The position numbers and the translations under genes are program-made. From assembly GCF_900112595.1 (NCBI RefSeq), contig NZ_FOMI01000008.1, positions 62,001 through 126,000 of the forward strand: a stretch of DNA of 64,000 nucleotides. Reading direction: 5' to 3'. The DNA comes from Algibacter pectinivorans. Lineage in GTDB: Bacteria > Bacteroidota > Bacteroidia > Flavobacteriales > Flavobacteriaceae. Positions 5,593 through 27,044 of this stretch are shown here, one piece after another. A model generated the notes under the pieces. That model was not told the origin of the DNA, searched no databases, and saw nothing but the letters and a program-made list of their open reading frames with translations. The stretch's first letter is position 1; each line of letters opens with the position of its first letter.

Positions 5593-6987
5593 ATGAAATT
5601 CCAATTATTTCTAGGAGTATTTTTATTAACCTATTTTACAACTTTTGCCCAAATAAAGCATGGTTTAAGAGATGAAGACGGACGTCATATTATACCTAGA
5701 GGTTTCGTGGTTAATACAAATGATCACAAAGGGGAAGTGTTTTTTAATAGCGATGACTATGCAAGAATGGTTAGAATGGGAGCTAACTTTCAAGTAATAC
5801 GATTAGAATTAGGTAAGCTAAGTCATTTTCCGGGAGGTAAATTAGATCCAACTTATTTGAATAAGCTTGATAATCTGGTAGAACTTGGTAAAAACCATGG
5901 GATTAAAACCATTTTTAAAATGACAGTTTATGGAGTTGATAAATTTATTTGGGAAGAGTTTTGGCAAAACAAAAAGGATGAATATGAAACCTATATTGAT
6001 GCATGGAAAGTGATATGGAATCGATATTCAGAGGAATCTTCGGTGTTAGGTTACGATGTGGTAAACGAACCTAGGAAGTTAACCATGGATATTTCTTATG
6101 AAAAACTAACTAATAAATATCTCATTCCGCTATATCAAAAAATTATAGATGAAAGTCAAAAAATAAACGCAGATAAAATGACATTGTTTCAGTCTATCTT
6201 CATGAATAAAGGAGAGAAAGTAGACAACAATCAATATTCTGAAATTACGGCGCCCATAAAAAGAAAGAATATTATTTTTGCGCCACATATATATCAAAAT
6301 GATATTAACTATTTAAAGCGTAATATGGATCGTTTTGATAAAGAATCAGACATGCTAAACGCTCCAATTCTTATAGGAGAATGGGGTTTTCCTACCTTTG
6401 CAACAACCGATACTATTATAGATGGCAAACTTGGGCAGTTAAAGTATAGAGAGCTTTACATACGAACAGCAGAGGTATTCGATAAGATGGGGGTAGGCTC
6501 AATTAAAGCTTGGTTTTTAGGTAATCGTACCATGCAACATTTTTTGCCGGGTGGTCCTTCAACATGGTCTATTTTTAGCGATAGTACCGATGCAGGTACC
6601 GTTGAACGTAAGTATATTACAGATGTAATATCACGACCTTTTCCACAAGTTATTGCAGGAGATATTCAATCGTTTCTATTCAATCATGCTACAAGAAGTT
6701 TAGATGTTAAATTAAGGCCAGATAATAGTAAAGGCGCATCCAAAATATTTATTGGTGCCAATAGGCATTATCCAGATGGGTTTTCTGTTTTAATAGGCAA
6801 TCAGTCAGTTTTATATTATAACCCTTTAAAAAATGTTGGTCTTGAAATTTATAAATTAGCGAAAGGTGTCGATCCAACAAATTTTATTTGGGATTCTAAT
6901 ACCCAAAAGTTAATCATATTAAAATGGCCCGAAAACAAGGATGAAATAGAAATGAAAATTGTTCCAGGCATAAGAAATTTTGAATAG
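5593..6987 (+). CDS. GH5-like (cellulase-fold) glycoside hydrolase
   Basis: This 464-residue secreted (beta/alpha)8-barrel hydrolase has a signal peptide ending near residue 19 (TTFAQ). GH5 landmarks are visible: the acid/base Glu159 in VVNEPR, an aromatic-flanked His232 in PHIYQ, and the nucleophile Glu263 in LIGEWGF. Residues from about 355 to 464 form an extra beta-rich domain, as seen C-terminal to the barrel in endoglycoceramidase-type GH5 members. The substrate is not evident, and a beta-glycosidic link in the target glycan is inferred. It starts the unit with GH3 and a sulfatase (23 bp to the GH3 gene) and has its own copy of the repeated regulatory element. GH5 is not one of the enzymes I would expect in an ulvan locus, so its role deserves testing. 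Confidence 0.8.
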   Translation: MKFQLFLGVFLLTYFTTFAQIKHGLRDEDGRHIIPRGFVVNTNDHKGEVFFNSDDYARMVRMGANFQVIRLELGKLSHFPGGKLDPTYLNKLDNLVELGKNHGIKTIFKMTVYGVDKFIWEEFWQNKKDEYETYIDAWKVIWNRYSEESSVLGYDVVNEPRKLTMDISYEKLTNKYLIPLYQKIIDESQKINADKMTLFQSIFMNKGEKVDNNQYSEITAPIKRKNIIFAPHIYQNDINYLKRNMDRFDKESDMLNAPILIGEWGFPTFATTDTIIDGKLGQLKYRELYIRTAEVFDKMGVGSIKAWFLGNRTMQHFLPGGPSTWSIFSDSTDAGTVERKYITDVISRPFPQVIAGDIQSFLFNHATRSLDVKLRPDNSKGASKIFIGANRHYPDGFSVLIGNQSVLYYNPLKNVGLEIYKLAKGVDPTNFIWDSNTQKLIILKWPENKDEIEMKIVPGIRNFE

Positions 6988-7010: not shown

Positions 7011-9185
7011 ATGAAGAAGTTATTATTAGTAGGATGTTTTGTTGTCTCATTTTTAAGTTGTAATTCATATAAAGCAACTGCACAAAATAAAGGACAGTCG
7101 GATTCTGAAATTGCTAAAAAAGTAGAGGGTCTTATAAGTCAAATGACCTTAGACGAAAAAATAGCAGAAATGACGCAAGATGCTCCTGCAAATAACAGAT
7201 TAGGAATTCCGTTCATGAAGTATGGAGAAGCACTACATGGTTTGTGGCTAGTTTTAGATTATTATGGAAATACAACTGCGTATCCTCAAGCTATAGCCGC
7301 AGCTTCTACTTGGCAACCCGAGTTAGTAAAAAAAATGGCCTCTCAAACAGCGATGGAAGCACGTGCTTTAGGTGTTACACATTGCTATTCCCCTAATTTA
7401 GATGTGATTTCTGGTGACCCAAGGTATGGTAGGGTAGAAGAATCTTATGGCGAAGACCCATATTTAGTGTCTAGAATGGGTGTTGCATTTATTGAGGGGT
7501 TACAAGGTACAGGCGAGGAGCAGTATGATGAGAATCATGTTATTGCAACGGCTAAGCATTTTATAGGTTATCCGGAAAATAGACGCGGTATTAATGGTGG
7601 TTTTAGCGATATGTCCGAACGTCGATTACGAGAAATTTATCTGCCTCCTTTTGAAGCTGCTATAAAAGAAGCAAAGGTAGGATCTATAATGCCTGGGCAT
7701 CAAGATTATAATGGAGTTCCAAACCATATGAATACTTGGTTACTAAAGGATATTTTAAGAGATGAATTAGGGTTTGATGGTTTTATTGTTTCCGATAATA
7801 ATGATGTTGCACGATTGGAGACCATGCATTTTATTTCAGAATCTAGAACAGAGTCAGCAATATTAGGTTTAAAAGCTGGTGTGGATATGGATTTAGTTAT
7901 TGGAAAAAGCGTAGACCTATCTTCATATCATTCAAACGTATTAAAAGATACAATTACGAAGAATCCGGAATTAGTAAAATATATTGATAAGGCCACATCT
8001 CGTATTTTAACCGCAAAATATAAATTAGGTTTATTTGATGAGGAACCAAAAGAGATTGATACTAAAACTGTAAATGCGGGAAGAAAAGAGCATCAAGAGT
8101 TTTCTTATGAAATGGCAAAAAAAGCAATCATTTTATTAAAGAATGATAACAATCTTTTGCCTTTAGACATTAACGGTATAAAATCCTTAGCGGTAATTGG
8201 TCCTAACGCACATGAAGAGCAACCTGAAAAAGGAACATATACTTTACTAGGTGGTTATTCTGGATTGCCACCATATTATACGTCTGTATTAGAAGGGTTA
8301 ACAAGTAAAACTAAAGGGAAAGTAAAGATAAATTATGCCAAAGGTTGCGATTTGTTAAGCAATTCCAAAGAAGGATTTTCAGAAGCTATTGCAGCAGCAA
8401 ATAAATCAGACGCGGTTGTACTTGTGGTTGGTGGCTCTCGTAAAACGGGTGGCGAAGGTGTAGATCGTGCCGATTTAGATTTATACGGGGTTCAAAATGA
8501 ATTAGTAGAGGCTATACATAAAACAGGAAAACCAGTAATTGTTGTTTTAATTAATGGACGTCCATTAACTATAAATTATATAGCAGAAAATGTACCTTCT
8601 ATTTTAGAGACTTGGTATTTAGGAATGCGATCTGGTGATGCTATTGCCGATGCTATTTTTGGCGATGTTAATCCAGGAGGGAAACTTACCGTTTCTTTTC
8701 CAAGATCTGTAGGTCAAGTTCCGGTAACGTATTTAGAGCGTCCAGATTTTATTGGTTCTGGTAAAGGATTATATAAAGATGCCGATAAATCGCCTTTATT
8801 TCCTTTTGGCTATGGGCTAAGTTATACCACATTTAAGTACGGTGCACCAAAACTTGAAAACCCAACTATTAGTATTGATGGATCAACAACAGTATCTGTT
8901 GAAGTAACTAATACAGGAGATGTTTTAGGTGATGAGGTAGTACAAATGTATGTTCGAGATGACTATGCTTCTGTAGGACGTTATCTTAAAATGCTAAAAG
9001 GATTTAAGCGCATTACTTTAAAACCAGGCGAAACTAAAACTGTTACTTTTAATCTAGGTTTTAACGAGCTTAATGTTTTAAATCAAGAAATGAAAAAAGT
9101 AGTAGAACCTGGTACTTTTACAATTTCTGTTGGGGCGTCATCTATGGCCAAAGATTTGCAAACAGTATCTTTAATGGCTAAATAA
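7011..9185 (+). CDS. GH3 beta-glycosidase (glucosidase/xylosidase type)
   Basis: This 724-residue GH3 enzyme releases terminal beta-linked sugars from oligosaccharides. A lipoprotein-like signal peptide (FLSC, Cys17) suggests membrane anchoring. The N-terminal barrel has RYGRVEESYGEDP, Lys182-His183 in ATAKHF, and the nucleophile Asp262 in GFIVSDNND. The alpha/beta sandwich follows (about 360-590, including AVIGPNA and VLVINGRP), and a C-terminal fibronectin-III-like domain ends the protein. In an ulvan-type pathway a GH3 would be a beta-xylosidase or beta-glucosidase, and the sequence alone does not decide which. It lies 23 bp after the GH5 gene and 48 bp before a sulfatase. Confidence 0.9.
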   Translation: MKKLLLVGCFVVSFLSCNSYKATAQNKGQSDSEIAKKVEGLISQMTLDEKIAEMTQDAPANNRLGIPFMKYGEALHGLWLVLDYYGNTTAYPQAIAAASTWQPELVKKMASQTAMEARALGVTHCYSPNLDVISGDPRYGRVEESYGEDPYLVSRMGVAFIEGLQGTGEEQYDENHVIATAKHFIGYPENRRGINGGFSDMSERRLREIYLPPFEAAIKEAKVGSIMPGHQDYNGVPNHMNTWLLKDILRDELGFDGFIVSDNNDVARLETMHFISESRTESAILGLKAGVDMDLVIGKSVDLSSYHSNVLKDTITKNPELVKYIDKATSRILTAKYKLGLFDEEPKEIDTKTVNAGRKEHQEFSYEMAKKAIILLKNDNNLLPLDINGIKSLAVIGPNAHEEQPEKGTYTLLGGYSGLPPYYTSVLEGLTSKTKGKVKINYAKGCDLLSNSKEGFSEAIAAANKSDAVVLVVGGSRKTGGEGVDRADLDLYGVQNELVEAIHKTGKPVIVVLINGRPLTINYIAENVPSILETWYLGMRSGDAIADAIFGDVNPGGKLTVSFPRSVGQVPVTYLERPDFIGSGKGLYKDADKSPLFPFGYGLSYTTFKYGAPKLENPTISIDGSTTVSVEVTNTGDVLGDEVVQMYVRDDYASVGRYLKMLKGFKRITLKPGETKTVTFNLGFNELNVLNQEMKKVVEPGTFTISVGASSMAKDLQTVSLMAK

Positions 9186-9233: not shown

Positions 9234-11009
9234 ATGAGAATTTTAACCTTGGCCTTTTTAATTTGTATCTGTTTATTTGGTTGTCAAAATAAAAAGGCTA
9301 ATAGCGAAAGTAACAAGCAAGAATCGGATAATTTGTCCTTGCCAAAACGTCCCAATATTTTGTGGTTGGTTACTGAGGATATGGGCGCTTATATACCTCC
9401 ATTTGGGGATTTAACAGTTGAAACTCCAAATTTAACGCGTTTAGCAAACGAAGGTGTTGTTTATCCAAACCTGTATTCCACATCTGGAGTTTGTGCGCCT
9501 AGTCGAGCTGCCATTGCAACAGGTATGTATCCTTCTAGTATTGGAGCAAATCATATGCGTACTAATTCAAATACAAAGGCCACAGGATTACCAGCTTACG
9601 AAGCAGTGCCACCGCCAAGTGTTAAAATGGTAAGTGAGTTACTTAGAATGAACGGGTATTATTGCTCAAACAATTACAAGGAAGATTACCAATTTAAAGC
9701 ACCAGTAACCGCTTGGGATGAAAGTAGTTATTTTGCACATTGGAGGAATAGAGCGGAAAATCAGCCTTTTTTCTCTGTAATTAATTTTACCGAAACCCAT
9801 GAGTCTGGTTTATTTGAGCCTTATGGATATAGAAATGTTGAAACCAGGCATTACCACGAAGGGGATACCACGTATGTATGGAAGCAAAATGGATTGCCCG
9901 ATTCTAAAAATAGGATTCCAGAATCGGAAATAACGAAACACTTACCTAAAGACACAAAATTTAATATTCCGCCGTATTTACCTGATACTCCAAAAGTTCG
10001 CAATGACATGTGGAAACTATATAACAATATAGCTGAGATGGATAAACAGGTTGGAGCTGTTTTAAAACAATTAGAAGACGATGGCTTGTTAGATAATACT
10101 ATTGTGTTTTTCTATGGCGATCATGGTGGCCCTTTACCAAGAGAGAAACGATTAATTTATGACTCGGGTTTAAATACACCAATGATAATTCGTTTTCCAA
10201 AAAAACAAAAGGCTAATACAAAAGACAATCAGCTTATCAGTTTTATAGATTTTGCTCCCACATTGTTATCGTTAATAGATGTGGAACCACCAAAATATAT
10301 GCAAGGTCAAGCTTTTTTAGGAAACTATAAAGCTAAAAAAGCAAGGAAATATATTCATGCAGCAGCCGATCGTTTTGATGAAGTTACCGATGTAATACGT
10401 GCAGTAAGAGATAATCAATTTAAGTACATTAGAAATTATAGACCAGAACAAGGTTATTATTTACCTTTAGCATACCGAGAAAAAATTCCGAGTATGCAGG
10501 AACTTTTAAGGTTAAAAACTGAGGGTAAATTAAACGATGTTCAAAAACAATGGTTTAGAGAAAATAAGCCTGAAGAAGAATTGTTTGATTGTATTGCCGA
10601 TCCTTTCGAGCTGAATAACCTTGCCGCTAATCCAGAGTATAAAGAAAAATTGCAAGAGCTACGAAACGAAATGGATAATTGGTTACCGAGTATTGGGGAT
10701 TATCCTAATTTACCAGAAATTGAATTAATAGATAAACTGTGGAATGGCCAGGAGAAACAGCCTGTAACAATTAATCCAACTGTAAAATTATCTAACAACA
10801 TATTAACAATAAATTGTGGTACAGAGGGGTCTTCAATAGGTTATAAGATTAAAAATAAAAAAGGAGGGTTTTCTAAATCGTGGAGTATTTATACAGAACC
10901 AATCCGTGTTAAAATAGGAGATGAACTGTTAGTTAAAGCCCACCGTATTGGTTTTAAAGCTAGTAAGGAGTTGTATATAAACACGTCTAAACTAAATATC
11001 AAGATGTGA
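9234..11009 (+). CDS. S1-family sulfatase with chitobiase-like C-terminal domain
   Basis: This 591-residue lipoprotein (lipobox LFGC, Cys17) is a formylglycine-dependent sulfatase. The maturation motif is Cys87-A-P-S-R91 in SGVCAPSRAAIATG. The N-terminal metal site reads TEDM (Glu48, Asp49) rather than the usual Asp-Asp, and YGDHGGPLPREK carries the second metal-binding part. Residues about 515-591 form a small beta domain (NCGTEGSSIGYKI, then WSIYTEPIRVKIGDELLVKA) resembling the chitobiase/beta-hexosaminidase C-terminal domain, as seen in N-sulfoglucosamine-sulfohydrolase-like proteins. It probably desulfates an oligosaccharide in the periplasm or at the surface. It is the last gene before a 626-bp gap. 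Confidence 0.92.
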   Translation: MRILTLAFLICICLFGCQNKKANSESNKQESDNLSLPKRPNILWLVTEDMGAYIPPFGDLTVETPNLTRLANEGVVYPNLYSTSGVCAPSRAAIATGMYPSSIGANHMRTNSNTKATGLPAYEAVPPPSVKMVSELLRMNGYYCSNNYKEDYQFKAPVTAWDESSYFAHWRNRAENQPFFSVINFTETHESGLFEPYGYRNVETRHYHEGDTTYVWKQNGLPDSKNRIPESEITKHLPKDTKFNIPPYLPDTPKVRNDMWKLYNNIAEMDKQVGAVLKQLEDDGLLDNTIVFFYGDHGGPLPREKRLIYDSGLNTPMIIRFPKKQKANTKDNQLISFIDFAPTLLSLIDVEPPKYMQGQAFLGNYKAKKARKYIHAAADRFDEVTDVIRAVRDNQFKYIRNYRPEQGYYLPLAYREKIPSMQELLRLKTEGKLNDVQKQWFRENKPEEELFDCIADPFELNNLAANPEYKEKLQELRNEMDNWLPSIGDYPNLPEIELIDKLWNGQEKQPVTINPTVKLSNNILTINCGTEGSSIGYKIKNKKGGFSKSWSIYTEPIRVKIGDELLVKAHRIGFKASKELYINTSKLNIKM

Positions 11010-13200: not shown

Positions 13201-13515
13201 ATGCAAAGATTAGCCTTTAAAATGAAATTAAATAAAGGACAAAAAGAAATTTATAAAAAGCGCCATAATGAGATTTGGCCAGAACTTAAAGCATTATTAA
13301 AGGATAATGGAGTAAGCGAATATTCTATTTTTTTTGACGAAGAAACAAATACATTATTTGCTTTTCAAAAAGTTTCTGGAAATAATAGTTCTCAAGATTT
13401 AGCAAGCAACCAAATTGTTAAAAAATGGTGGGATTTTATGGCAGACGTAATGGAAGTTAACCCCGATAATTCGCCGGTTTCAATACCTTTACAAGAGCTT
13501 TTTTATATGGAGTAA
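13201..13515 (+). CDS. rhaM: L-rhamnose mutarotase
   Basis: This 104-residue cytoplasmic protein interconverts the alpha and beta anomers of L-rhamnose, feeding the isomerase. It matches the RhaM family over its full length. YKKRHNEIWPELKALLKDNG carries the conserved Tyr/His/Trp active-site region; KKWWDFMADVM and NPDNSPVSIPLQELFYME are near-diagnostic for the family. It has no signal peptide. It sits between a sulfatase and a secreted lyase instead of in the rhaDI operon 43 kb away, which is strong evidence that this PUL's product is L-rhamnose. Confidence 0.95.
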   Translation: MQRLAFKMKLNKGQKEIYKKRHNEIWPELKALLKDNGVSEYSIFFDEETNTLFAFQKVSGNNSSQDLASNQIVKKWWDFMADVMEVNPDNSPVSIPLQELFYME

Positions 13516-13565: not shown

Positions 13566-16022
13566 ATGAAAAACAAATACTTAAAGAAACAATATTTTAA
13601 AAACATTTTTATTCTGCATCTTGTTTTACTTTTTTCATTTCTAGGCAGTGCACAAGTTGTTTTAGAAAATGAAATAAAAATTACGGATTTAGGTTTGCAC
13701 TTTAATGGTAGTAAAGTAGGTAATTCTTCGGCTGATAATGGATCAAATACAGAATACGATTATGTTTTTGGTCGTAATATTTCGGCACATGGAGACTGTA
13801 TAAAAACATATGGTGACTATGTGTTTATGACTTGGTATCGAGGTGGTAAAACAGATAGGCATGTTATGTTAACGAGGTATAACACAGTTACACAAACTAT
13901 AGTTACAATAGAATTCCCACATAGGCATACTGGTTTTCAAAACAGATGGTGGCTTGGGGAATCGCACAATGCTATTGCAATAGGAGTTAGTCCTTTAAAT
14001 GGGACCATACATTTATTGTATGACATGCACGCTTACAGTAGTTCAAGGCCGTCAAACGGTAGTTTAGCTAATGATTATTTTAGATATTCTTACTCTATTG
14101 AAAATGCGGCGTCTTTGCCAGATGAAGAATTTACACTAGATAAGTTTGTACAAAATAGTAGTGGTGGTTATAAGCACTTAAGGTTAACAGGTAGTGCTCC
14201 TCAAAATGAATTTATTGCATTAACTTACCCTAATTTCTTCTTAAATGATGCAGGTGATTTATTTATGTGGATGCGTGAAGGCGGAAATAATAATGGAATG
14301 TACAAATTTTCTCGTTATGATGCTACAACAGCCACGTGGTCCAATTTTATAGATTTTAATGCTTTAAATGCTAGGAGCCAACCAGATATAACCTATAATT
14401 GGGGATTATACGGAGATATTAAATACGTAAACGGTAAGATGCGCATTGGTTTTCAAAGACGTTCACAAAATAATAATGATAAGTTCGAGTACCAAAATGG
14501 GGTATATTATGCGTATTCTGATGATCAAAGTGGAGCTACGGATTGGAAAAACCACCAAGGTCAAAATTTTAGCACACCGCTTTATGATGCCGATTTTATT
14601 AAAGTTATGGAGCCTGGTGACTATGTTCAAGGTACTAATACAAACGCATTAAATATTGTTGCCGGTTTTGATTGGACAGTTACTGAAAACGATGATGTGC
14701 ATATTATAAGTAGAGTACGAGATAATCAATTTGGGGTTACTAAAAATTTACATACCTACAAACCATCAGGAGCAACAGATTTTATAACATCAGAAGATTT
14801 TTCTGGCGCTTCATCTATATATACTTCTGGAAATGATGTGTTTATTATAGGTTTGTCTGGTGGCAGAGTATTTGTAGAAAAGACTGAAGGTGGCACTAAT
14901 AATTTTACAAGAGTGTATCAAGCCACTTCAGGAAGAACTTTTGACCACGGGAGGGTCTATGTTGATAATGGAAAACTGTACTATTATTTAATGGAGAATG
15001 CTTCCGGTAGTGCACAACCACTTTATTTACAAATAATAGATTTAGGAATAGTGAAAGATCCTTTTAGAGTATCCTTAAGCTCGCCATCTAATGGTGCATC
15101 TTTTAGTATAGGAGAAACAATTCAGATTTCAGCGAATGCGGTCGATGAAAATAGCCATATATCTAAGGTGGAATTTTGGATAAATGGTTCTTATTTTGGT
15201 GAGGACAATAGTATACCTTATACTCTTGATTGGTCACCTACGGTAGAAGGAGACTATACGCTTCAAGCTATAGCTTATAACACAAATAATCAAACGGTTT
15301 CTTCTATAGAAAATACCGTTAACGTTAGTGAGTTTGATCCAACCGATTTAACAGGTGACATTTACCGAATTAAGAATTTTGTTACCGGAAAGTATTTACA
15401 TTCGGTAGGTTCGGATGTGGTTGAAAGTGATAATGCCACCAACGTAGCTTCTGGTGACAAGGAATGGGAATTTGTTAAAGCTGGAGACTATTATAATATT
15501 GAAAGTAAAAGGTCCGATCGTGGTATTTTAAGAGCAGCCGGAAACCCACCAAACGACATTATTAATACTGGTTTTAGTGCTCCCAGAGAGGATAGTGATA
15601 AACAATTTAGTGTCGCTTATAATAGTAGTGACGGCACATATCAATTTTTAACTCGAAATAATTCTAATTACTTATTTCAAAATACTAGTGGTATAATAGA
15701 GCATATTGGAAATTCTAATGACAGGTCTAAATGGATTGTGGAATCAACAACATTAAGTACAACAAAATCAGAATCTAATATGTTTTCTGCAAGGGTTTTT
15801 CCTAATCCAGCAAAGAATCAATTTACCATTTTATTAAATGGAGTAAATAAAGCCACTGTTGTTATAAATGATATGCTAGGAAAGGTGATTTTTCAAAATA
15901 AGGTAAATAATTCCAATAGAATTTATATTGAAAATAATGGCCGATTTAAAACAGGACTTTACCTAATAAAAGTAATTGATGATAAGAAAAGAGTTTTCTA
16001 TTCGAAACTTATTGTTAACTAA
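13566..16022 (+). CDS. T9SS-secreted BNR-type polysaccharide lyase (PL24/PL25-like, ulvan lyase candidate)
   Basis: This 818-residue secreted enzyme probably starts polymer breakdown outside the cell. The signal peptide ends near GSAQ (residue 30). Residues about 35-495 form a BNR-4-type beta-propeller with His134 in GESHNAIAIG and His155 in LLYDMHAY. Their 21-residue spacing matches the catalytic His pair known in PL24/PL25 ulvan lyases, which eliminate at the uronic acid next to rhamnose-3-sulfate. An Ig-like domain (about 498-592, VEFWINGSYFGEDN), a ricin-like beta-trefoil region (595-730, YRIKNFVTGKYLHS) and a T9SS type A sorting domain (739-818, RVFPNPAKNQF, ending YSKLIVN) follow. It is the only protein in the window with a T9SS signal. 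The exact PL family is inferred. Confidence 0.8.
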   Translation: MKNKYLKKQYFKNIFILHLVLLFSFLGSAQVVLENEIKITDLGLHFNGSKVGNSSADNGSNTEYDYVFGRNISAHGDCIKTYGDYVFMTWYRGGKTDRHVMLTRYNTVTQTIVTIEFPHRHTGFQNRWWLGESHNAIAIGVSPLNGTIHLLYDMHAYSSSRPSNGSLANDYFRYSYSIENAASLPDEEFTLDKFVQNSSGGYKHLRLTGSAPQNEFIALTYPNFFLNDAGDLFMWMREGGNNNGMYKFSRYDATTATWSNFIDFNALNARSQPDITYNWGLYGDIKYVNGKMRIGFQRRSQNNNDKFEYQNGVYYAYSDDQSGATDWKNHQGQNFSTPLYDADFIKVMEPGDYVQGTNTNALNIVAGFDWTVTENDDVHIISRVRDNQFGVTKNLHTYKPSGATDFITSEDFSGASSIYTSGNDVFIIGLSGGRVFVEKTEGGTNNFTRVYQATSGRTFDHGRVYVDNGKLYYYLMENASGSAQPLYLQIIDLGIVKDPFRVSLSSPSNGASFSIGETIQISANAVDENSHISKVEFWINGSYFGEDNSIPYTLDWSPTVEGDYTLQAIAYNTNNQTVSSIENTVNVSEFDPTDLTGDIYRIKNFVTGKYLHSVGSDVVESDNATNVASGDKEWEFVKAGDYYNIESKRSDRGILRAAGNPPNDIINTGFSAPREDSDKQFSVAYNSSDGTYQFLTRNNSNYLFQNTSGIIEHIGNSNDRSKWIVESTTLSTTKSESNMFSARVFPNPAKNQFTILLNGVNKATVVINDMLGKVIFQNKVNNSNRIYIENNGRFKTGLYLIKVIDDKKRVFYSKLIVN

Positions 16023-16150: not shown

Positions 16151-16235
16151 TTTGTTTTGTAAAAAAATGCATATTAGTCATTAATTTTTATAAGCACTTA
16201 ACTTCTTGAAAATAACATCGAAAAGCATAATTGAA

Positions 16236-19037: not shown

Positions 19038-21812
19038 ATGTTAAAAAAAATGAACTTTAAACATTTTATATACGCGTTATATGCTACTGTTTGTTTGAGC
19101 TTTACGTCATGTAAAGAACAAGCAACTATAGCAGAAGCAAAAAAATTAACCATTTCAGAAGGGTTTGAAAATCCATTAGGGTTTTATGATAAAATGCCAA
19201 CTTTTTCATGGCAGTTGCCAGTTTCAGAAGGTGTTTTAAGTCAATCAGCATATCAAATAGTAGTGGCTAGTAGTCCAGATTTGTTACCTGATCATGCAGA
19301 TTTATGGAACTCTAAAAAACAACAAACAGCACAATCTACTTGGATCAAGTATGAAGGAGCAGCTTTACAATCACGTCAAAAAGTATATTGGCAAGTTAAG
19401 TATTGGAATCAAGATAAGCAAGCTTCAAAATGGAGTGAAATTAATCATTTTGAGTTGGGTCTATTGAATAATAATGATTGGAAAGCCAAATGGATTGGTT
19501 TAGATACAAAAAAAGAAAAGGTTTTAGGAAGTCAAAATAATATTATTCATAGACCGCAATACTTAAGAAAAGGTTTCAAATTGTCTAATGATGTTGCTTC
19601 GGCAAGACTATACATTACTGCAAAAGGGGTTTTTGATGTGGCTATAAATGGAAAAGATGTTAGTGATGATGTAATGCCTCCTGGATATACGCCTTATAAA
19701 GAACGTATTGAAACGATTACTTACGATGTTACCAATTTAATAGAACCTGGAGAAAATACCGTAGGTGTTGAGGTTGCTGCAGGCTGGCATTCAGGACGTT
19801 TAGGTTGGATGGAATCATATTGGAGCGATACAGAAACTCCTAAAATGTTGTTTCAATTAGAATTAATTATGAAAGATGGTTCTAAAGAAATGATTTTATC
19901 TGATGACACATGGAAAGGAACAACATCTGGACCGATTCGAGTTTCTGAAATTTACGATGGAGAAACCTATGACGCCAATTTAGAAATGCCAAATTGGACC
20001 ACTACTAAATTTGATGATAAAACATGGGAGTCTGTAAAAACATTTCCTGTTACGGAAGACATAAGGCTAGAACCTAAAAGACATACCACTGTTAAATCTA
20101 AAATTGAATTAGCAACAAAAGCTATTATTGAAAAAGATGGAACTGCTATTTTTGATTTTCAACAGAATATGGTAGGTGTGCCTTTGCTAAAAGTGCCAAT
20201 GAAAAAAGGGCAAACATTAAAAGTTCGTTTTGCTGAAAAGTTATCTCCAGATGGTTCGTTTTATACTGAAAATTATAGAAGTGCGGAGTCAACTAATTAT
20301 TATACAGCTTCAAAGGACGGTGTTATTGAATGGATGCCAAAATTTACATTTCACGGATTTCAATATGTAGAATTAAGCGGATTTGATACTTCAAAAAAAC
20401 CATCAAAAGATTGGGTAACGGGATTAGTTCAATATTCAGATTTTGAAGAAAACGGAACCTTTACATCGTCTCACGAAAAATTAAATCAGTTACAAAGTAA
20501 TATTGTTTGGGGGTTAAGAGGTAATTTTTTTGATATACCAACCGATTGCCCGCAACGTGACGAACGCATGGGGTGGACAGCAGATGCACAAGTATTTGCA
20601 CCAGCATCTATGTTTAATGCAGATGTATATAAATTTTGGGCAAGTTGGATGCAAAGTGTTCGAGAATCACAAAGTGATAATGGAGCCATCCCTTGGGTTG
20701 TGCCAGATGTGCTGTTTAATAATAAAGTAAGTGCAGGTTGGGGAGATGCTTGTACTATTATTCCTTGGAAAATTTACCTAAAAACTGGAGACAAAGAAAT
20801 CCTAGAAGAGAATTTTGAAACCATGAAAGGTTGGGTAAAATACCACGAAAGTGTTACTAAAAATAACATTTCTTCTATGGGCTTTTTTGCAGATTGGTTG
20901 CAGCCACTTCCAGAAAATGGCGATAATAAAGGTGATACATCTAAAAGCTTAATAGGAACTGCGTTTTTTGCACATTCTGCAAACTTAACAGCAAAAACAG
21001 CGAAAGCTTTAGGTAAAACCGAAGAATTTAAAAAATATAATGCTATATATAAAACGGTTGCAAATGCTTTTGAAAACAAATTTTTTGAGAATGGAAAAGT
21101 AAAAGATGTTGCAGAAACACAAACCTCTTATTTACTAGCTTTAGCCTTTGGTTTACTTTCTGAAGAGCATAAAGCAAATGCTAAAAAACACTTATTAAGA
21201 AAAATAGCAGAAGCCGATAATCATTTAAGAACCGGATTTTTAGGTACGCCCTTATTATACGAAGTTTTAGATGCAACTGGTGAAATAGACTTGATGTACA
21301 AGTTATTATTTAACGAAACTTATCCGTCATGGTTTTATTCCATCAATCAAGGAGCAACCACTATTTGGGAACGTTGGAACAGTTATAGTAAAAAAGATGG
21401 TTTTAATGCGCAAAAAATGAATAGTTTAAACCATTATGCTTATGGTGCCATAGGCGAATGGATGTACGAACGTATTGCTGGTATTGCACCCTTAGAAGCG
21501 GGTTACAAAACCATTAGAATAGCACCAGTACCAAAAGAGCCATTAACATCATCATCAGCCAGTTTAAATACACCTTATGGTAACGTATCTTCATCTTGGG
21601 AAATAAAAGGTAGTGATTTTAAATTAGAAGTAGTGGTCCCGCCAAATACCACAGCAAAAGTTGTTATTCTAGCTAATACGAAACAAGCACTCTTATTAAA
21701 TGATACTAACTTTAAAGATAATTCAAACGTAAAATTAACTAATACAGACAAGGATGCATTTGTATTAGAAGTACAACCTGGAACGTACTCATTTCAATCA
21801 AAACTTAAATAA
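19038..21812 (+). CDS. GH78 alpha-L-rhamnosidase, second of a tandem pair
   Basis: This 924-residue lipoprotein (FTSC lipobox) has the same domain order as the gene before it and long identical stretches, such as FFDIPTDCPQRDER and NSLNHYAYGAIG. The pair evidently arose by tandem duplication. Active-site regions are intact: DCPQRDERMGWTADAQ and GATTIWERWNSY. The loops differ, for example SRGRALYENF in the first against GWMESYWSD here, which suggests different linkage or sulfation preferences. An ATG at 19050 (MNFKHFIY) is an alternative start. The gene is 3 bp after its paralogue and 6 bp before the next, so translation is probably coupled. Confidence 0.93.
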   Translation: MLKKMNFKHFIYALYATVCLSFTSCKEQATIAEAKKLTISEGFENPLGFYDKMPTFSWQLPVSEGVLSQSAYQIVVASSPDLLPDHADLWNSKKQQTAQSTWIKYEGAALQSRQKVYWQVKYWNQDKQASKWSEINHFELGLLNNNDWKAKWIGLDTKKEKVLGSQNNIIHRPQYLRKGFKLSNDVASARLYITAKGVFDVAINGKDVSDDVMPPGYTPYKERIETITYDVTNLIEPGENTVGVEVAAGWHSGRLGWMESYWSDTETPKMLFQLELIMKDGSKEMILSDDTWKGTTSGPIRVSEIYDGETYDANLEMPNWTTTKFDDKTWESVKTFPVTEDIRLEPKRHTTVKSKIELATKAIIEKDGTAIFDFQQNMVGVPLLKVPMKKGQTLKVRFAEKLSPDGSFYTENYRSAESTNYYTASKDGVIEWMPKFTFHGFQYVELSGFDTSKKPSKDWVTGLVQYSDFEENGTFTSSHEKLNQLQSNIVWGLRGNFFDIPTDCPQRDERMGWTADAQVFAPASMFNADVYKFWASWMQSVRESQSDNGAIPWVVPDVLFNNKVSAGWGDACTIIPWKIYLKTGDKEILEENFETMKGWVKYHESVTKNNISSMGFFADWLQPLPENGDNKGDTSKSLIGTAFFAHSANLTAKTAKALGKTEEFKKYNAIYKTVANAFENKFFENGKVKDVAETQTSYLLALAFGLLSEEHKANAKKHLLRKIAEADNHLRTGFLGTPLLYEVLDATGEIDLMYKLLFNETYPSWFYSINQGATTIWERWNSYSKKDGFNAQKMNSLNHYAYGAIGEWMYERIAGIAPLEAGYKTIRIAPVPKEPLTSSSASLNTPYGNVSSSWEIKGSDFKLEVVVPPNTTAKVVILANTKQALLLNDTNFKDNSNVKLTNTDKDAFVLEVQPGTYSFQSKLK

Positions 21813-21818
21813 TTAAAA

Positions 21819-23825
21819 ATGAAAATAAATTTAGTATCGTTTTTGCTTTTCGTATCAAGTTTATTATTGAACGCGCAGTCCACAAAATTTACTACGCCCA
21901 TTATTGATAACGAAGTTATATTTCAAGAAAATAACGGTATGGTTGCTGTTGAAGCAGAATACTTTAATAAACAAAGCAAGTTCGAACACAGACAATGGTA
22001 TATCACTTCAAAGAATGCTGTATCTAATGTAGGTAGTGATGAAGACGCTCCACATCACATAAATGCAAGTAATGATACTTATATTGAAATATTACCAGAT
22101 ACAAGAATAACACATTCTGATAAGCTAGTTCAAGGCGAAAACTTTTCCAATAAGGCGGGAGAAATAGGAATCTTGCATTATAAAGTTAGAATTAGTAATC
22201 CAGGACGCTATTACGTTTGGGTACGAGCATTTAGCACAGGAAGTGAGGATAATGGTTTACATGTTGGATTAAATGGAGCATGGCCTAAAAATGGGCAGCG
22301 CATGCAATGGTGTGAAGGCAAAAATAAATGGACCTGGGAGAGTAAGCAAAGAACAAAAGAAGAGCATTGTGGTATAGCTAAAGAAATCTATTTAGATATA
22401 GAAAAAGCAGGTGTTCATGATATACAATTTAGTATGCGTGAAGATGGTTTTGAGTTTGATAAATTCATTTTAACCAAAGACAGTACGTACACGCCAAAAG
22501 GCGAAGGTTTAAAAGTAACCACGCTTTGGCCTATGCAATCGTATTACAAACAAATAGCAGCTTCTAATATTGAAAATAAAACCCTACCTATTGATGATTT
22601 TCCAATAAAAGGCACAGGGTTTTATAAACATGCTGAAGGTAAATGGCTAGGTATTAACCCAAACAAGCAACAGGAAGCGCAAACAACAACGCCTTTTACG
22701 TTTAAAAACGGAAATTATGATTTGGTATTTGTTGCTGTTGGCGAAAATGATGGACAATCAGAATTTACTATAAGAATCAATAATAAAAAATTAGGCACGT
22801 TTAAACCGCCATTAACTAAAGACCTATTTGAAGAAGGAGAAAGTAATAACGCCCTTTGGGAAAATGTAAAATTTAAAAAAGGTGATAAAATAACAGTAAT
22901 TGCCAAAATTGGAAGTGCAGACGGAAAAGAATGGGCAAGAGCACGTTGGTCTGGTATTATTTTTGCCCCAGTTGGTAAAGGTAAGGAGGTCATAAAAACA
23001 CCTTATAATGGAGCAATAAAGGTTGCGCAAAACACAGCACCTGTAATTAAAGCGCCTAAAGGTCGTATTGCTGTTGTTGCCGATGGTAACTCACCCGATC
23101 CTGACGATTTAGGTGGCACTGCTATTTCCCTAGCTTTATTAAGAGCCACAGGTTTAGAAAACACTTTGGTACACTATTCTCATAGTTGTGATATTGTTCG
23201 TGTCAATAGAATTTCTGAAAAAGCCGAAATCGAGAGACACGCGCTTATGCAAAGTGTTTGTGATGTAACAGCAAGACGATGGGGTGGTTTTGATGGGCTA
23301 AAATTTTTAGATGCAAAATGGAATATAGATGAAACTATTAAAGATTTAGCTAAAGCCATTAACGCATCTACAGCTGAAGACCCATTATGGATTATAGAAG
23401 CAGGCGAACCTGATATAATTGGTTTTGCACTTGATGCGAGTTCTAAAGACAAACATAAACATGTAAAAGTAATAACACACCACCCTGCAAATGACGACGC
23501 CGGAGATTTTTATACTTGGCAACAAATATTAGATTTTGGAGTTGAAGAAGTTCGAATTCCAGACCAGAACATAAAACTTAAAGTAAATATTGCTGAGTGG
23601 GATTGGGCTAGAGACCATAAAGACCCAAGGTTACAACAAGTATGGTTATTTGGTAAAATGGCAGAGGTGGATGATGTAGTTAAGTTTCAAAAAGGAAAAT
23701 GGGATTGCTCTGATGCGGGTATGATTTTGTATTGGATAACAGGTGCCAACTTAAATAATGGACTTAAACAAGGTACAGTAGATGATGTTAAAAATATCTT
23801 ACTAAATTATATTGCTAAAAATTAA
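21819..23825 (+). CDS. Nucleoside-hydrolase-like protein with two beta-sandwich domains, function unknown
   Basis: I do not recognise an assigned function. The 668 residues start with a signal peptide (LLLNAQ, about residue 20). Residues about 30-215 look like a carbohydrate-binding beta-sandwich (MVAVEAEYFNKQ, RYYVWVRAFSTG). Residues 255-400 form a second beta-rich domain (YDLVFVAVGEND, WSGIIFAP). Residues 412-668 resemble the nucleoside-hydrolase-like fold: RIAVVADGNSPDPDDLGGTA is close to the Asp-rich calcium site of that superfamily (DxDPGxDD, or DPDD in the DUF1593 branch), and PLWIIEAGEPDIIG follows. Nucleoside hydrolases cleave N-ribosyl bonds, which makes no sense here, so a glycan-directed role is inferred. 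It lies 6 bp after GH78 and 10 bp before a sulfatase. Confidence 0.6.
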   Translation: MKINLVSFLLFVSSLLLNAQSTKFTTPIIDNEVIFQENNGMVAVEAEYFNKQSKFEHRQWYITSKNAVSNVGSDEDAPHHINASNDTYIEILPDTRITHSDKLVQGENFSNKAGEIGILHYKVRISNPGRYYVWVRAFSTGSEDNGLHVGLNGAWPKNGQRMQWCEGKNKWTWESKQRTKEEHCGIAKEIYLDIEKAGVHDIQFSMREDGFEFDKFILTKDSTYTPKGEGLKVTTLWPMQSYYKQIAASNIENKTLPIDDFPIKGTGFYKHAEGKWLGINPNKQQEAQTTTPFTFKNGNYDLVFVAVGENDGQSEFTIRINNKKLGTFKPPLTKDLFEEGESNNALWENVKFKKGDKITVIAKIGSADGKEWARARWSGIIFAPVGKGKEVIKTPYNGAIKVAQNTAPVIKAPKGRIAVVADGNSPDPDDLGGTAISLALLRATGLENTLVHYSHSCDIVRVNRISEKAEIERHALMQSVCDVTARRWGGFDGLKFLDAKWNIDETIKDLAKAINASTAEDPLWIIEAGEPDIIGFALDASSKDKHKHVKVITHHPANDDAGDFYTWQQILDFGVEEVRIPDQNIKLKVNIAEWDWARDHKDPRLQQVWLFGKMAEVDDVVKFQKGKWDCSDAGMILYWITGANLNNGLKQGTVDDVKNILLNYIAKN

Positions 23826-23835
23826 CCCATTAAGG

Positions 23836-25329
23836 ATGAAAATTATAAAAAAAAGTGTTAGTTTATTAGTGGTTTTCCTAGTTTTAGGAGGTTGTAAAAG
23901 AAAAGAAATAAAGGGAAATATCGGTGATAGAGTTGCTGTCAAAAAACCTAATGTAGTTTATATTCTAACAGATCAATGGAGAAGTACAGCTCTAGGTTAC
24001 GCTGGTAATCCAGATGTAAAAACGCCTAATTTAGATGCGTTTGCCAAAGAGTCGGTGAATTTTACAAATGCCGTATCTGTAATGCCAGTGTGTACACCGC
24101 ACAGAGCAGCATTGTTAACAGGTAAGTTTCCAACAACAACAGGTATGTTTGTTAATGATTTGTATTTGCCATCTGAAGAATTAACAATGGCAGAAATTTA
24201 CAAAGCAGAAGGGTACAACACAGCCTATTGGGGTAAATGGCATTTAGATGGACATGGGCGGTTAAATTACATTCCAAAAGAAAGACGCCAAGGTTTTGAC
24301 TATTGGAAGGCTCTAGAGTGCTCGCATAATTACACCAAAATGCCGTATTATGATAATAATAATCCTGAGATAAAATACTGGAAAGAGTATTCGCCATTTG
24401 CAATTGTTAAAGATGCCAATCAATATATAACAGAGCATGCCAAGGACGACAAACCGTTTTTAGCATTCATTTCAATTGCAACACCGCATTTTCCGCACGA
24501 TAATGCGCAAAAAAAGTATAAGGATTTGTACCCGCCAGAATCTTTAACCTTAAACCCAAATGTTACTGAAAAGTTTAAAAATAAAAGTCGTGAAGAATTG
24601 CAAGGGTACTATGCACATGCAACCGCAACCGATGAAGCCATTGGAACCGTTTTAGCTAAACTAAAAGAACTTGATATATTAAATAATACTATTATAGTTT
24701 TTTCTGCCGACCATGGCGAAATGATGGGGGCACATGACGTTAGACCTTTCCAGAAACAGCGTGCATGGGATGAATCTATAAAAGTCCCATTTTTAATAAG
24801 CTATCCAGGAATAGATAAGCAAAAAGGTGCAATTATAAATGCACCTATAAACACGCCAGATATTTTACCCTCCTTGTTAGGGTTGTCTAACATAAAAATC
24901 CCCCAAAATATAGAAGGAGAAAATTTAACAGCACTAATAAAGAATCCTGATTCGAGTGCAGATAGAGTAGCATTAGTAATGAGTGTTGCCCCTTTTGCAG
25001 GCAATTATAATAGTTTACCTTATAGAGCCATTAGAACCAAACAATACACCTATGCAAGAACACCTAATGGCCCAAGTATGTTTTTTGATAATGCGGCAGA
25101 TCCTTACCAAATGAATAATTTGTTAGGTAAACCTGAGTTTAAAGCAATTCAATTAGAATTAGATAATAAATTGAATGGGAAATTAGCTCAAATTGGAGAT
25201 GAGTTTAAATCAAGAGATTATTATCTCAAAAAATACAACTACACATTTGATAAGAAAAAGCCAGCTGTTCCACATTGGGAATTTGAAGTAGGCAAGGGAG
25301 TTGTACAATCACCAAAACCAGTAAAGTAA
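23836..25329 (+). CDS. S1-family sulfatase, lipoprotein
   Basis: This 497-residue lipoprotein (lipobox LGGC, Cys20) is a formylglycine sulfatase. The maturation motif is Cys86-T-P-H-R90 in PVCTPHRAALLTG. The metal site is TDQW (Asp46-Gln47) and SADHGEMMGAHD. TAYWGKWHLDGHGR carries the active-site Lys and His. The longest frame starts at a TTG (23812) overlapping the previous gene, but the ATG at 23836 gives a textbook lipoprotein signal and is preferred. It probably acts in the periplasm on oligosaccharides brought in by SusCD. The C-terminal extension beyond residue 440 is lysine-rich, with no recognised domain. Confidence 0.9.
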   Translation: MKIIKKSVSLLVVFLVLGGCKRKEIKGNIGDRVAVKKPNVVYILTDQWRSTALGYAGNPDVKTPNLDAFAKESVNFTNAVSVMPVCTPHRAALLTGKFPTTTGMFVNDLYLPSEELTMAEIYKAEGYNTAYWGKWHLDGHGRLNYIPKERRQGFDYWKALECSHNYTKMPYYDNNNPEIKYWKEYSPFAIVKDANQYITEHAKDDKPFLAFISIATPHFPHDNAQKKYKDLYPPESLTLNPNVTEKFKNKSREELQGYYAHATATDEAIGTVLAKLKELDILNNTIIVFSADHGEMMGAHDVRPFQKQRAWDESIKVPFLISYPGIDKQKGAIINAPINTPDILPSLLGLSNIKIPQNIEGENLTALIKNPDSSADRVALVMSVAPFAGNYNSLPYRAIRTKQYTYARTPNGPSMFFDNAADPYQMNNLLGKPEFKAIQLELDNKLNGKLAQIGDEFKSRDYYLKKYNYTFDKKKPAVPHWEFEVGKGVVQSPKPVK

Positions 25330-25364: not shown

Positions 25365-27044
25365 ATGAATAAATTACTAACATTATCAATAATAGGATTG
25401 TCGTTTCTAGCTTGTAATAAAAGCACATCTTCTAAAACAAAAGAAGAAAAACCTAATATTATTTTTATCCTAACAGACGACCAACGATGGGATGCTTTAG
25501 GCTATGCAGGAAATGATTTAGCCCACACTCCAGAAATGGATAAATTAGCAAAAAGTGGTGTGTTTTTTAAAAACACCATTGCTACAACCCCTATTTGCGC
25601 AGCAAGTAGAGCTAGTATATTTAGTGGCTTACAAGAGCGAACACATAACTATAGTTTTTCTAGTAAAGCTATGAAAGATGAGTACATGGAATATGCTTTC
25701 CCTAGAGTTTTAAAAAAATCTGGATATTACACAGGTTTGTATGGTAAATTTGGTGTAAAATATAAAAAATTAGATTCACTTTATAATATTCATGAAAATT
25801 ACGATTTAAGATACGATCTTAAAGATAGAACTAGTTACTATTATAAAACTTTAGGTAACGATACCGTTCACTTAACACGTTATACCGGAGAAAAGGCACT
25901 GCAATTTTTAGAAAAGGCACCAACAGATAAACCGTTTTGTTTACAGCTTAGTTTTAGTGCACCTCATGCAAGTGACAACACTCTTGAACAGTATTTTTGG
26001 CAAGAAGAAAACAATCATGTTTTAGAAAATGTAACTGTACCAGATGCAAATATTTCTTCGGATGAAGACTATAATAAACTGCCACAACTAGTTAAAGATG
26101 GCTTTAATCGGTTACGTTGGTATTGGCGTTATGACACTCTAGAGAAATACCAACATAGTGTTAAAGGCTATTATAGAATGTTAGCCGGTATTGATAATGA
26201 GATTGCTAAAATAAGATCGAAACTAGAGGAAAAAGGAATAGCAGATAATACTATTATTGTTTTAATGGGAGATAATGGTTTTTTCTTAGGCGAAAGACAA
26301 ATTTCTGGTAAATGGTTAATGTACGATAACTCACTAAAAGTGCCACTAATTATCTACGACCCTAGAAATAAAGAGCATAAAGATGTTGAAGCTATGGCTT
26401 TAAATATTGATGTACCTTCTACTATATTGGATTATGCTAATATTCAAGCTCCTAGTACTTGGCACGGAAAAAGTTTAAAACCTTTAGTAGATAAAGAGAG
26501 TGTAAGTTTAGATCGTGATACTATTTTAATAGAGCATTTATGGGACTTTAAAAATATAGCACCAAGTGAAGGGGTACGAACTAAAGACTGGAAATATTTT
26601 AGATATGTTGATAATAAATCTATTGAAGAATTATACAATTTAAAAGATGACCCAAGGGAAACAAATAACCTTGTAAATAATGAACAGTATCAAGATATTT
26701 TAAATAATTTAAGGACAAAGTGTGAAGATTTAATAGAAAAGTATAAAGATCCTTATGCCTTAACCATTAATAATAATAAATTTAATGGCAACACTTTTAG
26801 ATGGCATGTACCCGAAGGTTCTCAAAAACAAACCGCATATCAAATTCTAGTCGCATCGTCCAAAGAAAACATCAATAACAATATAGGAGACGTTTGGAAT
26901 AGTACTAAAATACAAAGCACTTTAAAAGAAGCCAAAAAACCTAGTAATCTTAAATTAGAACAAAGCAAAACCTATTATTGGAAAATGCGAATTTATGACG
27001 AACTTAATAGAACAGGAAGCTATACCTCATTTCAAGAAATTTAA
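25365..27044 (+). CDS. S1-family sulfatase with a C-terminal GH78-type Fn3-like domain
   Basis: This 559-residue lipoprotein (FLAC, Cys17) has TDDQRWDALGYAG (Asp38-Asp39-Gln40) and the maturation motif Cys78-A-A-S-R82 (CxAxR, Ala for the usual Pro). LYGKFGVKY and MGDNGFFLGERQ complete the site. The sulfatase domain ends near residue 465. Residues 473-559 (TFRWHVPEGSQKQTAYQILVAS to TSFQEI) clearly resemble the N-terminal Fn3-like domain of the GH78 proteins encoded upstream (TFSWKL... AYHIVVAS ... NSFEL). The protein stops at that domain's end. This is either a binding module or what remains of a sulfatase-GH78 fusion, a fusion type known from ulvan loci. The next gene starts at the base after the stop codon. 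Confidence 0.88.
   Translation: MNKLLTLSIIGLSFLACNKSTSSKTKEEKPNIIFILTDDQRWDALGYAGNDLAHTPEMDKLAKSGVFFKNTIATTPICAASRASIFSGLQERTHNYSFSSKAMKDEYMEYAFPRVLKKSGYYTGLYGKFGVKYKKLDSLYNIHENYDLRYDLKDRTSYYYKTLGNDTVHLTRYTGEKALQFLEKAPTDKPFCLQLSFSAPHASDNTLEQYFWQEENNHVLENVTVPDANISSDEDYNKLPQLVKDGFNRLRWYWRYDTLEKYQHSVKGYYRMLAGIDNEIAKIRSKLEEKGIADNTIIVLMGDNGFFLGERQISGKWLMYDNSLKVPLIIYDPRNKEHKDVEAMALNIDVPSTILDYANIQAPSTWHGKSLKPLVDKESVSLDRDTILIEHLWDFKNIAPSEGVRTKDWKYFRYVDNKSIEELYNLKDDPRETNNLVNNEQYQDILNNLRTKCEDLIEKYKDPYALTINNNKFNGNTFRWHVPEGSQKQTAYQILVASSKENINNNIGDVWNSTKIQSTLKEAKKPSNLKLEQSKTYYWKMRIYDELNRTGSYTSFQEI

Follow-up and report, generated by a model that had tools for sequence, protein, structure and literature searches.

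The window analysed here, the whole stretch of 64,000 nucleotides from Algibacter pectinivorans, carries on its forward strand an open reading frame with an ATG start (21819..23825) for a secreted three-domain protein of 668 amino acids, in which two N-terminal modules (N1 and N2) are followed by a C domain; relatives with the same three domains are 66-96% identical to it in the best segment. Directly upstream on the same strand are two GH78 rhamnosidase genes (16206-19034 and 19038-21812; Pfam Bac_rhamnosid6H, E 1.5e-114 and 3.2e-115), and directly downstream is a sulfatase gene (23836..25329, forward strand; Pfam Sulfatase E 1.5e-59, scanned from 23842). Only 6 bp separate the end of the second GH78 reading frame at 21812 from the ATG at 21819, and 10 bp lie between the stop codon ending at 23825 and the first plausible ATG of the sulfatase at 23836, for which a longer version with a TTG start at 23812 is also listed. 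The first 20 residues (21819..21878, forward strand) read by eye as a signal peptide, and a comparable N-terminal hydrophobic stretch was seen, also by eye, in those relatives that consist of a separate C domain. An earlier sequence-only reading of this DNA had described a signal-peptide protein with two beta-sandwich domains, set between GH78 and sulfatase genes with gaps of 6-10 bp, and this description is borne out by the open reading frame coordinates and Pfam for the position, by the appearance of the N-terminus, and by predicted structure, with Pfam in addition for the first module, for the two domains (GH115-C/CBM6/CBM35-like and CBM36-like).

The surrounding genes encode SusC/SusD, GH5, GH3, sulfatases, a lyase of the short-ulvan-lyase type, two GH78, PL8, GH2s and GH106 (all by Pfam, the lyase by phmmer against PDB sequences). 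On this content the locus is an ulvan utilisation locus, and the genes at its right end fit rhamnose catabolism as far as their sequences tell. The partners that matter most below are all on the forward strand: a GH5 gene (5593..6987, Pfam Cellulase), whose product has endoglycoceramidase II as its closest solved structure, a weak similarity at E 3e-8; a GH3 gene (7011..9185, by Pfam), which adjoins the C-domain gene in several other loci; an S1_8-like sulfatase gene (9234..11009; best PDB match the S1_8A sulfatase 9bb9, E 1.2e-75); and a short-ulvan-lyase family gene (13566..16022; closest among PDB sequences to 6byp, 'Short ulvan lyase', at E 3.6e-170).

Several other features of the locus deserve mention in their own right. 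Upstream of the ulvan lyase gene, a 104-aa open reading frame (13201-13515), whose product looks like a putative L-rhamnose mutarotase, resembles a 104-aa frame that recurs elsewhere (cluster c6, 9 members). A PL8-family lyase is encoded at 27045-29174 (PF02278, E 9.9e-79). The preceding sulfatase (25365-27044, 559 aa) ends in an N-terminal Ig domain of the GH78 type (PF25788, E 2e-8) without the GH78 catalytic domain, and its relatives in six other loci (L015, L069, L071, L211, L214 and L216) are 1173-1193 aa long, as if the protein in the window were a shortened sulfatase-rhamnosidase hybrid. Just left of the window there is a GH39 gene.

The first module, N1 (aa 35-221; 21921..22481, forward strand), is CBM6/35-like and of the GH115 C-terminal type. 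It gave the sole Pfam match above cut-off in the whole protein (GH115_C at aa 35-221, E 9.8e-7, 29.2 bits against a cut-off of 24.1), and in a structure model of aa 21-408 (32 sequences, pLDDT 80, pTM 0.63) it aligned by VIA with 4zmh, a GH115 structure, at Z 16.3 and with 4qb2, a CBM35 with GlcA, at Z 12.0. The second module, N2 (aa ~252-387; 22572..22979, forward strand), was assigned as CBM36-like by VIA on the same predicted model, in which residues 232-367 aligned with 7ay3 (Z 12.2) and residues 233-363 with 1ux7, a CBM36 with calcium and xylotriose (Z 11.9). Both modules are strongly conserved in the clade, with a mean column identity of 68% over 32 rows.

The C domain (aa 413-668; 23055..23822, forward strand) behaved very differently in sequence and in structure comparisons. 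The C-terminal ~260 residues had no Pfam match at E up to 10 and none in NCBIfam, and searches of PDB sequences with phmmer and with a profile gave no significant match. Also, the models for nucleoside hydrolases (PF01156, IU_nuc_hydro) and for the Sde182 family (PF07632) matched neither the protein at E up to 10 nor anything in its own genome, so the domain was assigned to neither family, and PF06439 (DUF1080, 3-keto-disaccharide hydrolase) did not match the protein at E up to 10. The AlphaFold2 model of the domain (58 sequences, pLDDT 88, pTM 0.89), in contrast, gave six Foldseek matches at E <= 0.001, all of them nucleoside hydrolases and XopQ-type chains, the best plain nucleoside hydrolase being 4kpn (E 3.8e-4, TM about 0.5). 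With VIA-align the model matched 8ctm at Z 16.1 (rmsd 3.8, 222 aligned residues) and 2yhg, a Saccharophagus protein of the Sde182 family, at Z 14.6 (rmsd 3.4, 218 aligned), and the best 50 matches listed all belonged to nucleoside hydrolases or to proteins related to them in structure (XopQ/XOO4466, 2yhg). In a viral structure library no match to the domain reached E <= 0.001, and a Satyrvirus nucleoside hydrolase came second at E 0.015. Structure prediction, run as a check, thus upholds the nucleoside-hydrolase type that had been proposed from sequence, with VIA Z values of up to 16.1, and the proposal of an undescribed type agrees with the result that no described family matched in the libraries covered (Pfam, NCBIfam and PDB sequences). 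We conclude that the C domain has, by its predicted structure, the nucleoside-hydrolase fold, that it belongs to no family of those libraries and that it was apparently recruited to seaweed polysaccharide breakdown.

Conservation within the domain was assessed on 93 relatives, from which identical or contained sequences had been removed and 20 of which are only 27-35% identical to the query. The motif DGNSPDPDDLGG (aa 422-433; 23082..23117, forward strand) includes four residues, D422, N424, D429 and D430, that are identical in 93/93, and D427 is identical in 92/93. The other residues identical in all 93 are R416, G423, S517, P522, L523, G529 and G634; H554 and N558, in a conserved polar loop (23478..23492); each of D582-Q583-N584 (23562..23570); and D629, S631 and D632 in D629-C-S631-D632-A-G-M (23703..23723), the last three segments also being on the forward strand. 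The observation is not a chance one, since in the 57 other aligned copies the C domain shows 71-97% identity to the query and the four motif residues do not vary. Acidic residues are conserved within a predicted fold that is known to cleave glycosidic bonds.

How these residues correspond to those of nucleoside hydrolases was examined by profile comparison. With hhalign, the deep family profile matched an alignment of 21 nucleoside hydrolases at E 2.2e-4 (probability 45%), using 21 of the 23 loci and leaving out L092 and L180; with L092 included the values were E 5.9e-5 and 65%, and 22 alignments of unrelated neighbour families, used for comparison, gave E 0.044 to 0.97. The confident local part covers 59 columns around G529, with the acidic motif outside it. 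When the alignment was forced to extend, D422 was matched to the second Asp in the DxD of nucleoside hydrolases and D429-D430 to their DD pair, the spacing in the query being longer by one residue; the positions matched in this way form the N-terminal Asp cluster of these enzymes (Asp10, Asp14 and Asp15). On this register D422 likely occupies the catalytic position, and a shifted register would place N424 there instead. The C-terminal half, and hence D632 and any proton donor, has no reliable sequence alignment to nucleoside hydrolases. D632 is proposed as the counterpart of their C-terminal metal Asp, on the strand-then-helix order as its sole basis: in the model a strand leads through a turn at S631-D632 into a helix, in the order expected for the C-terminal His-Asp of nucleoside hydrolases (His241 and Asp242), at a place where the sequence alignment is unreliable. 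Because the confident alignment is limited to the G529 loop and the motif register was forced, sequence support for homology to nucleoside hydrolases is modest and the case is made mainly by the predicted fold. The Asp motif named in the sequence-only reading is present, with four invariant residues, and its nucleoside-hydrolase type is a putative one, in a register that comes from the forced alignment.

In a scan of GTDB genome contigs, 111 stretches encoded something related to one or another part of the protein, and the best 80 (78 loci) were kept; partial C-domain matches of less than 220 residues were left out, as was L040 from alignment A1. The C domain occurs in several arrangements, fused to N1-N2, fused to N1 alone, as a separate protein beside an N1-N2 or N1 gene, or alone, and in many loci it is a separate secreted protein. 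In the tree of the 93 sequences, midpoint rooted, a clade of 73 (at least 69.7% identical to the query, support 0.85) is set apart from 20 distant members. In the genome samples, a C-domain match at E <= 0.001 was found in 26/199 Flavobacteriaceae genomes and in 7/395 phylum-wide genomes, a few of them fragmentary. The distant relatives are found beside GH3 genes (L192, L198, L209), near sulfatases (L194, L195) or, by eye, next to housekeeping-looking genes (L190, L191). Since only 6 of the 23 distant stretches have a sulfatase relative and one has a rhamnosidase relative, the ulvan tie is a property of the tight clade and not of the whole family. Two loci are of interest for the state of the gene itself. 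In Polaribacter glomeratus (L047, 5923-6795) the C-domain gene is split into two open reading frames of 86 and 193 aa, so that it may be frameshifted or a pseudogene, and adjoins relatives of the window's rhamnose-catabolism genes; in L189 an open frame of 1568 aa matches a GH106 rhamnosidase and then a nucleoside-hydrolase-like domain.

Genomic linkage was evaluated in a co-occurrence sample of 199 Flavobacteriaceae genomes from 198 genera. The tight clade (70-97% identity) is present in 16 of them, two of one genus, when a score of more than 425 bits is required; of the 26 genomes with a match, the remaining 10 have distant or fragmentary matches only. An orthologue of the S1_8-like sulfatase occurs in 16/16 genomes with the clade versus 3/183 others (Fisher p 6e-21), one of GH5 in 13/16 versus 0/183 (p 7e-18) and one of the ulvan lyase in 12/16 versus 0/183 (p 3e-16), p-values which take no account of shared ancestry and of the frequent joint movement of these genes. 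Conversely, the clade is present in 12/12 genomes with a short-ulvan-lyase orthologue. The sulfatase is the most strictly co-occurring partner among those tested, and a fixed partnership with GH5 was rejected, the gene being missing from three of the 16 clade genomes. The sulfatase count (19 genomes) refers to full-length matches of at least 66% identity and leaves out G492 and G556, and the GH5 count leaves out G500 (42%). For the sulfatase and the lyase the 5-6 best first-look candidates were scored per genome, so that an absence is a little less certain where a genome is rich in sulfatases. At the level of loci, 42 of the 59 C loci (flanks of up to 6 kb) contain a sulfatase relative and 26 a GH78/GH106 relative, and five (L014, L036, L055, L059, L072) have no scored locus gene in their flanks. 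The co-occurrence with ulvan-locus genes across the 199 genomes favours carbohydrate metabolism, in keeping with the earlier view that nucleoside cleavage is unlikely, and a plain nucleoside hydrolase was rejected on genomic context.

In nucleoside hydrolases the metal grips the 2',3'-diol of the ribose and Asp10 activates water. Starting from what was computed, namely the gene, its modules, the predicted fold, the conserved residues and the genomic tie to ulvan-locus genes, we infer the metal, the catalysis, the bond type and the substrate along the same lines. The exported protein would be a three-module carbohydrate-active enzyme, in which the CBM6/35-like and CBM36-like modules may hold glycan chains with uronic acid and/or xylose, judging from their fold neighbours. 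The acidic site of D422, D429 and D430, probably together with D632 and the G529-x-x-D532 loop, would bind a divalent metal, probably calcium, which by analogy with nucleoside hydrolases could grip a cis-diol of the sugar; D422 would then activate water and the glycosidic bond would be cut, with a sugar and not a nucleobase as the leaving group. The substrate would most likely be an oligosaccharide that the enzymes of the ulvan locus set free, or one that comes from a co-digested polymer. L-rhamnose is a main sugar of ulvan and has a cis-2,3-diol, so a terminal desulfated rhamnosyl residue is a reasonable candidate, and as a specific one it is a guess.

A 'glycosidase of undescribed type', as the protein had been called, is therefore in our opinion the best reading of it, with the activity being a predicted one. 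That it is a metal-dependent enzyme of the nucleoside-hydrolase fold cleaving an O-glycosidic bond in an ulvan-derived or co-digested glycan has, in our estimate, close to an even chance, falling slightly short of it. The GH106 match in the open frame of L189 speaks in its favour, whereas the five C loci with no scored locus gene, the settings of L190 and L191, the modest sequence support and the Foldseek TM-scores of about 0.5 count against it. More tentatively, and with less than even confidence by some way, we suggest that the C domain founds a new family of secreted glycosidases on this fold, whose riboside site now cuts ulvan O-glycosides, which has combined with sugar-binding modules and, in the case of one distant relative, with a rhamnosidase, and which would provide a missing step of the short-ulvan-lyase loci.

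Other chemistry, such as a reaction on 3-keto sugars, would also agree with the strong conservation. The C domain could act within an oxidise-then-cleave route, hydrolysing or eliminating a 3-keto glycoside or a product of it, which we consider unlikely, and we give the same low standing to the accompanying proposal that a GMC or Gfo/Idh/MocA enzyme first oxidises the sugar at C3. This is nonetheless the strongest rival, since part of the clade repeatedly has GMC, MocA, DUF1080 and ThuA genes nearby and both reported and proposed 3-keto-glycoside hydrolases are found among DUF1080 proteins: at least one of MocA, DUF1080 (3-keto-disaccharide hydrolase), ThuA and GMC was found in 17/59 C-clade loci, directly adjacent in some, and on the contig of the window DUF1080 and MocA genes follow 3.2-5.8 kb beyond the window's end, with a weaker DUF1080-like stretch (29%) some 2.6 kb to the left of the window. 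According to PMC9007349, one DUF1080 protein hydrolyses 3-ketotrehalose and another is proposed to hydrolyse 3'-ketolactose; however, an endo-xanthanase/lichenase named in the same paper has a DUF1080 domain too, and the presence of this domain is by itself no proof of 3-keto chemistry. Moreover, the other 42 of the 59 loci have none of the four genes in their flanks, for which reason a general tie to 3-keto-glycoside genes was rejected, the distant-relative stretches have MocA, DUF1080 or ThuA in 0/23 and GMC in one, and in L217, which lacks the C clade, the S1_8-like sulfatase has GMC nearby all the same. As a separate observation, the S1_8-like sulfatase and a GMC oxidoreductase share a stretch in L212 (8000-13543) and also in L211, L215, L217 and L205, with a Gluconate_2-dh3 subunit also near the sulfatase in L212 and L215, a neighbourhood suggesting desulfation followed by sugar oxidation.

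The reaction is not fixed by the fold alone, and the protein could be a metal-dependent isomerase, lactonase, deacylase or dehydratase, or an enzyme of similar kind, that acts on fragments of ulvan. We regard this as improbable, given that the closest fold is that of the characterised nucleoside hydrolases, which cleave an N-glycosidic bond, although unusual reactions are known in ulvan loci, for instance that of the dehydratase P29_PDnc described in PMC8511951.

A third possibility, to which we attach a little less weight, is that the C domain is no longer catalytic and serves as a further sugar-binding or docking module. It is suggested by the fusion of binding-type modules to the C domain and by the similarity in fold (Z 14.6) to 2yhg, a nucleoside-hydrolase-related Saccharophagus protein, whose Sde182 relatives carry a 'cellulose-binding' label. 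On the other hand, acidic and amide residues invariant in 93/93, and a C domain found by itself as a secreted protein in many loci, would not be expected of such a module. Finally, a periplasmic or secreted ribonucleoside hydrolase that is in the locus by chance is very improbable, for despite the predicted fold and the similar acidic motif of the forced alignment, PF01156 has no match at E up to 10, the clade co-occurs with ulvan-locus genes and sugar-binding-type modules are attached.

The enzymes described for ulvan breakdown are lyases, sulfatases and glycoside hydrolases, together with a single dehydratase. The glycosidase reading would add to these a nucleoside-hydrolase fold that acts on fragments of polysaccharides and, if correct, a new tool for green-tide biomass. 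A conserved secreted protein that is present in 12/12 sampled lyase genomes, with a C domain matched in neither Pfam nor NCBIfam, is in any case a directly testable gap. Among the matches listed in a literature search, mostly covering papers outside subscription journals, there was no CAZyme of the nucleoside-hydrolase fold and no such protein in ulvan loci; a term search of two papers on the F. agariphila ulvan locus, the one on the dehydratase (PMC8511951) and the one of 2018 on the ulvan lyase (PMC6168547), did not return the word 'nucleoside', and PMC12648331 compares glycoside and nucleoside hydrolases.

In comparison with known systems, the C domain shares its predicted fold with the nucleoside hydrolases (PF01156), together with a weak profile similarity in which the G-x-x-[DT] loop is aligned. 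It differs from them by one extra residue in the motif and by its invariant N424, H554, N558, DQN and SDAG, and the protein as a whole differs in being secreted, in its attached sugar-binding-type modules, in its occurrence in ulvan loci and in having no match to the Pfam model. The Sde182 family (PF07632; 2yhg) likewise has the fold in common with the C domain, and 8/15 of its members (15/15 loci were used) have DPDD in the motif, whereas the C domain has no match to the Pfam model and the profile comparison was not significant (E 0.0064, probability 5.9%). N1 and N2 share their folds with the GH115 C-terminal/CBM6/CBM35 and CBM36 modules, respectively, and their ligands here are predicted from these fold neighbours. 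As for the genomic setting, the ulvan locus of Formosa agariphila is of the same kind as that of the window, with an ulvan lyase, GH78 and sulfatases.
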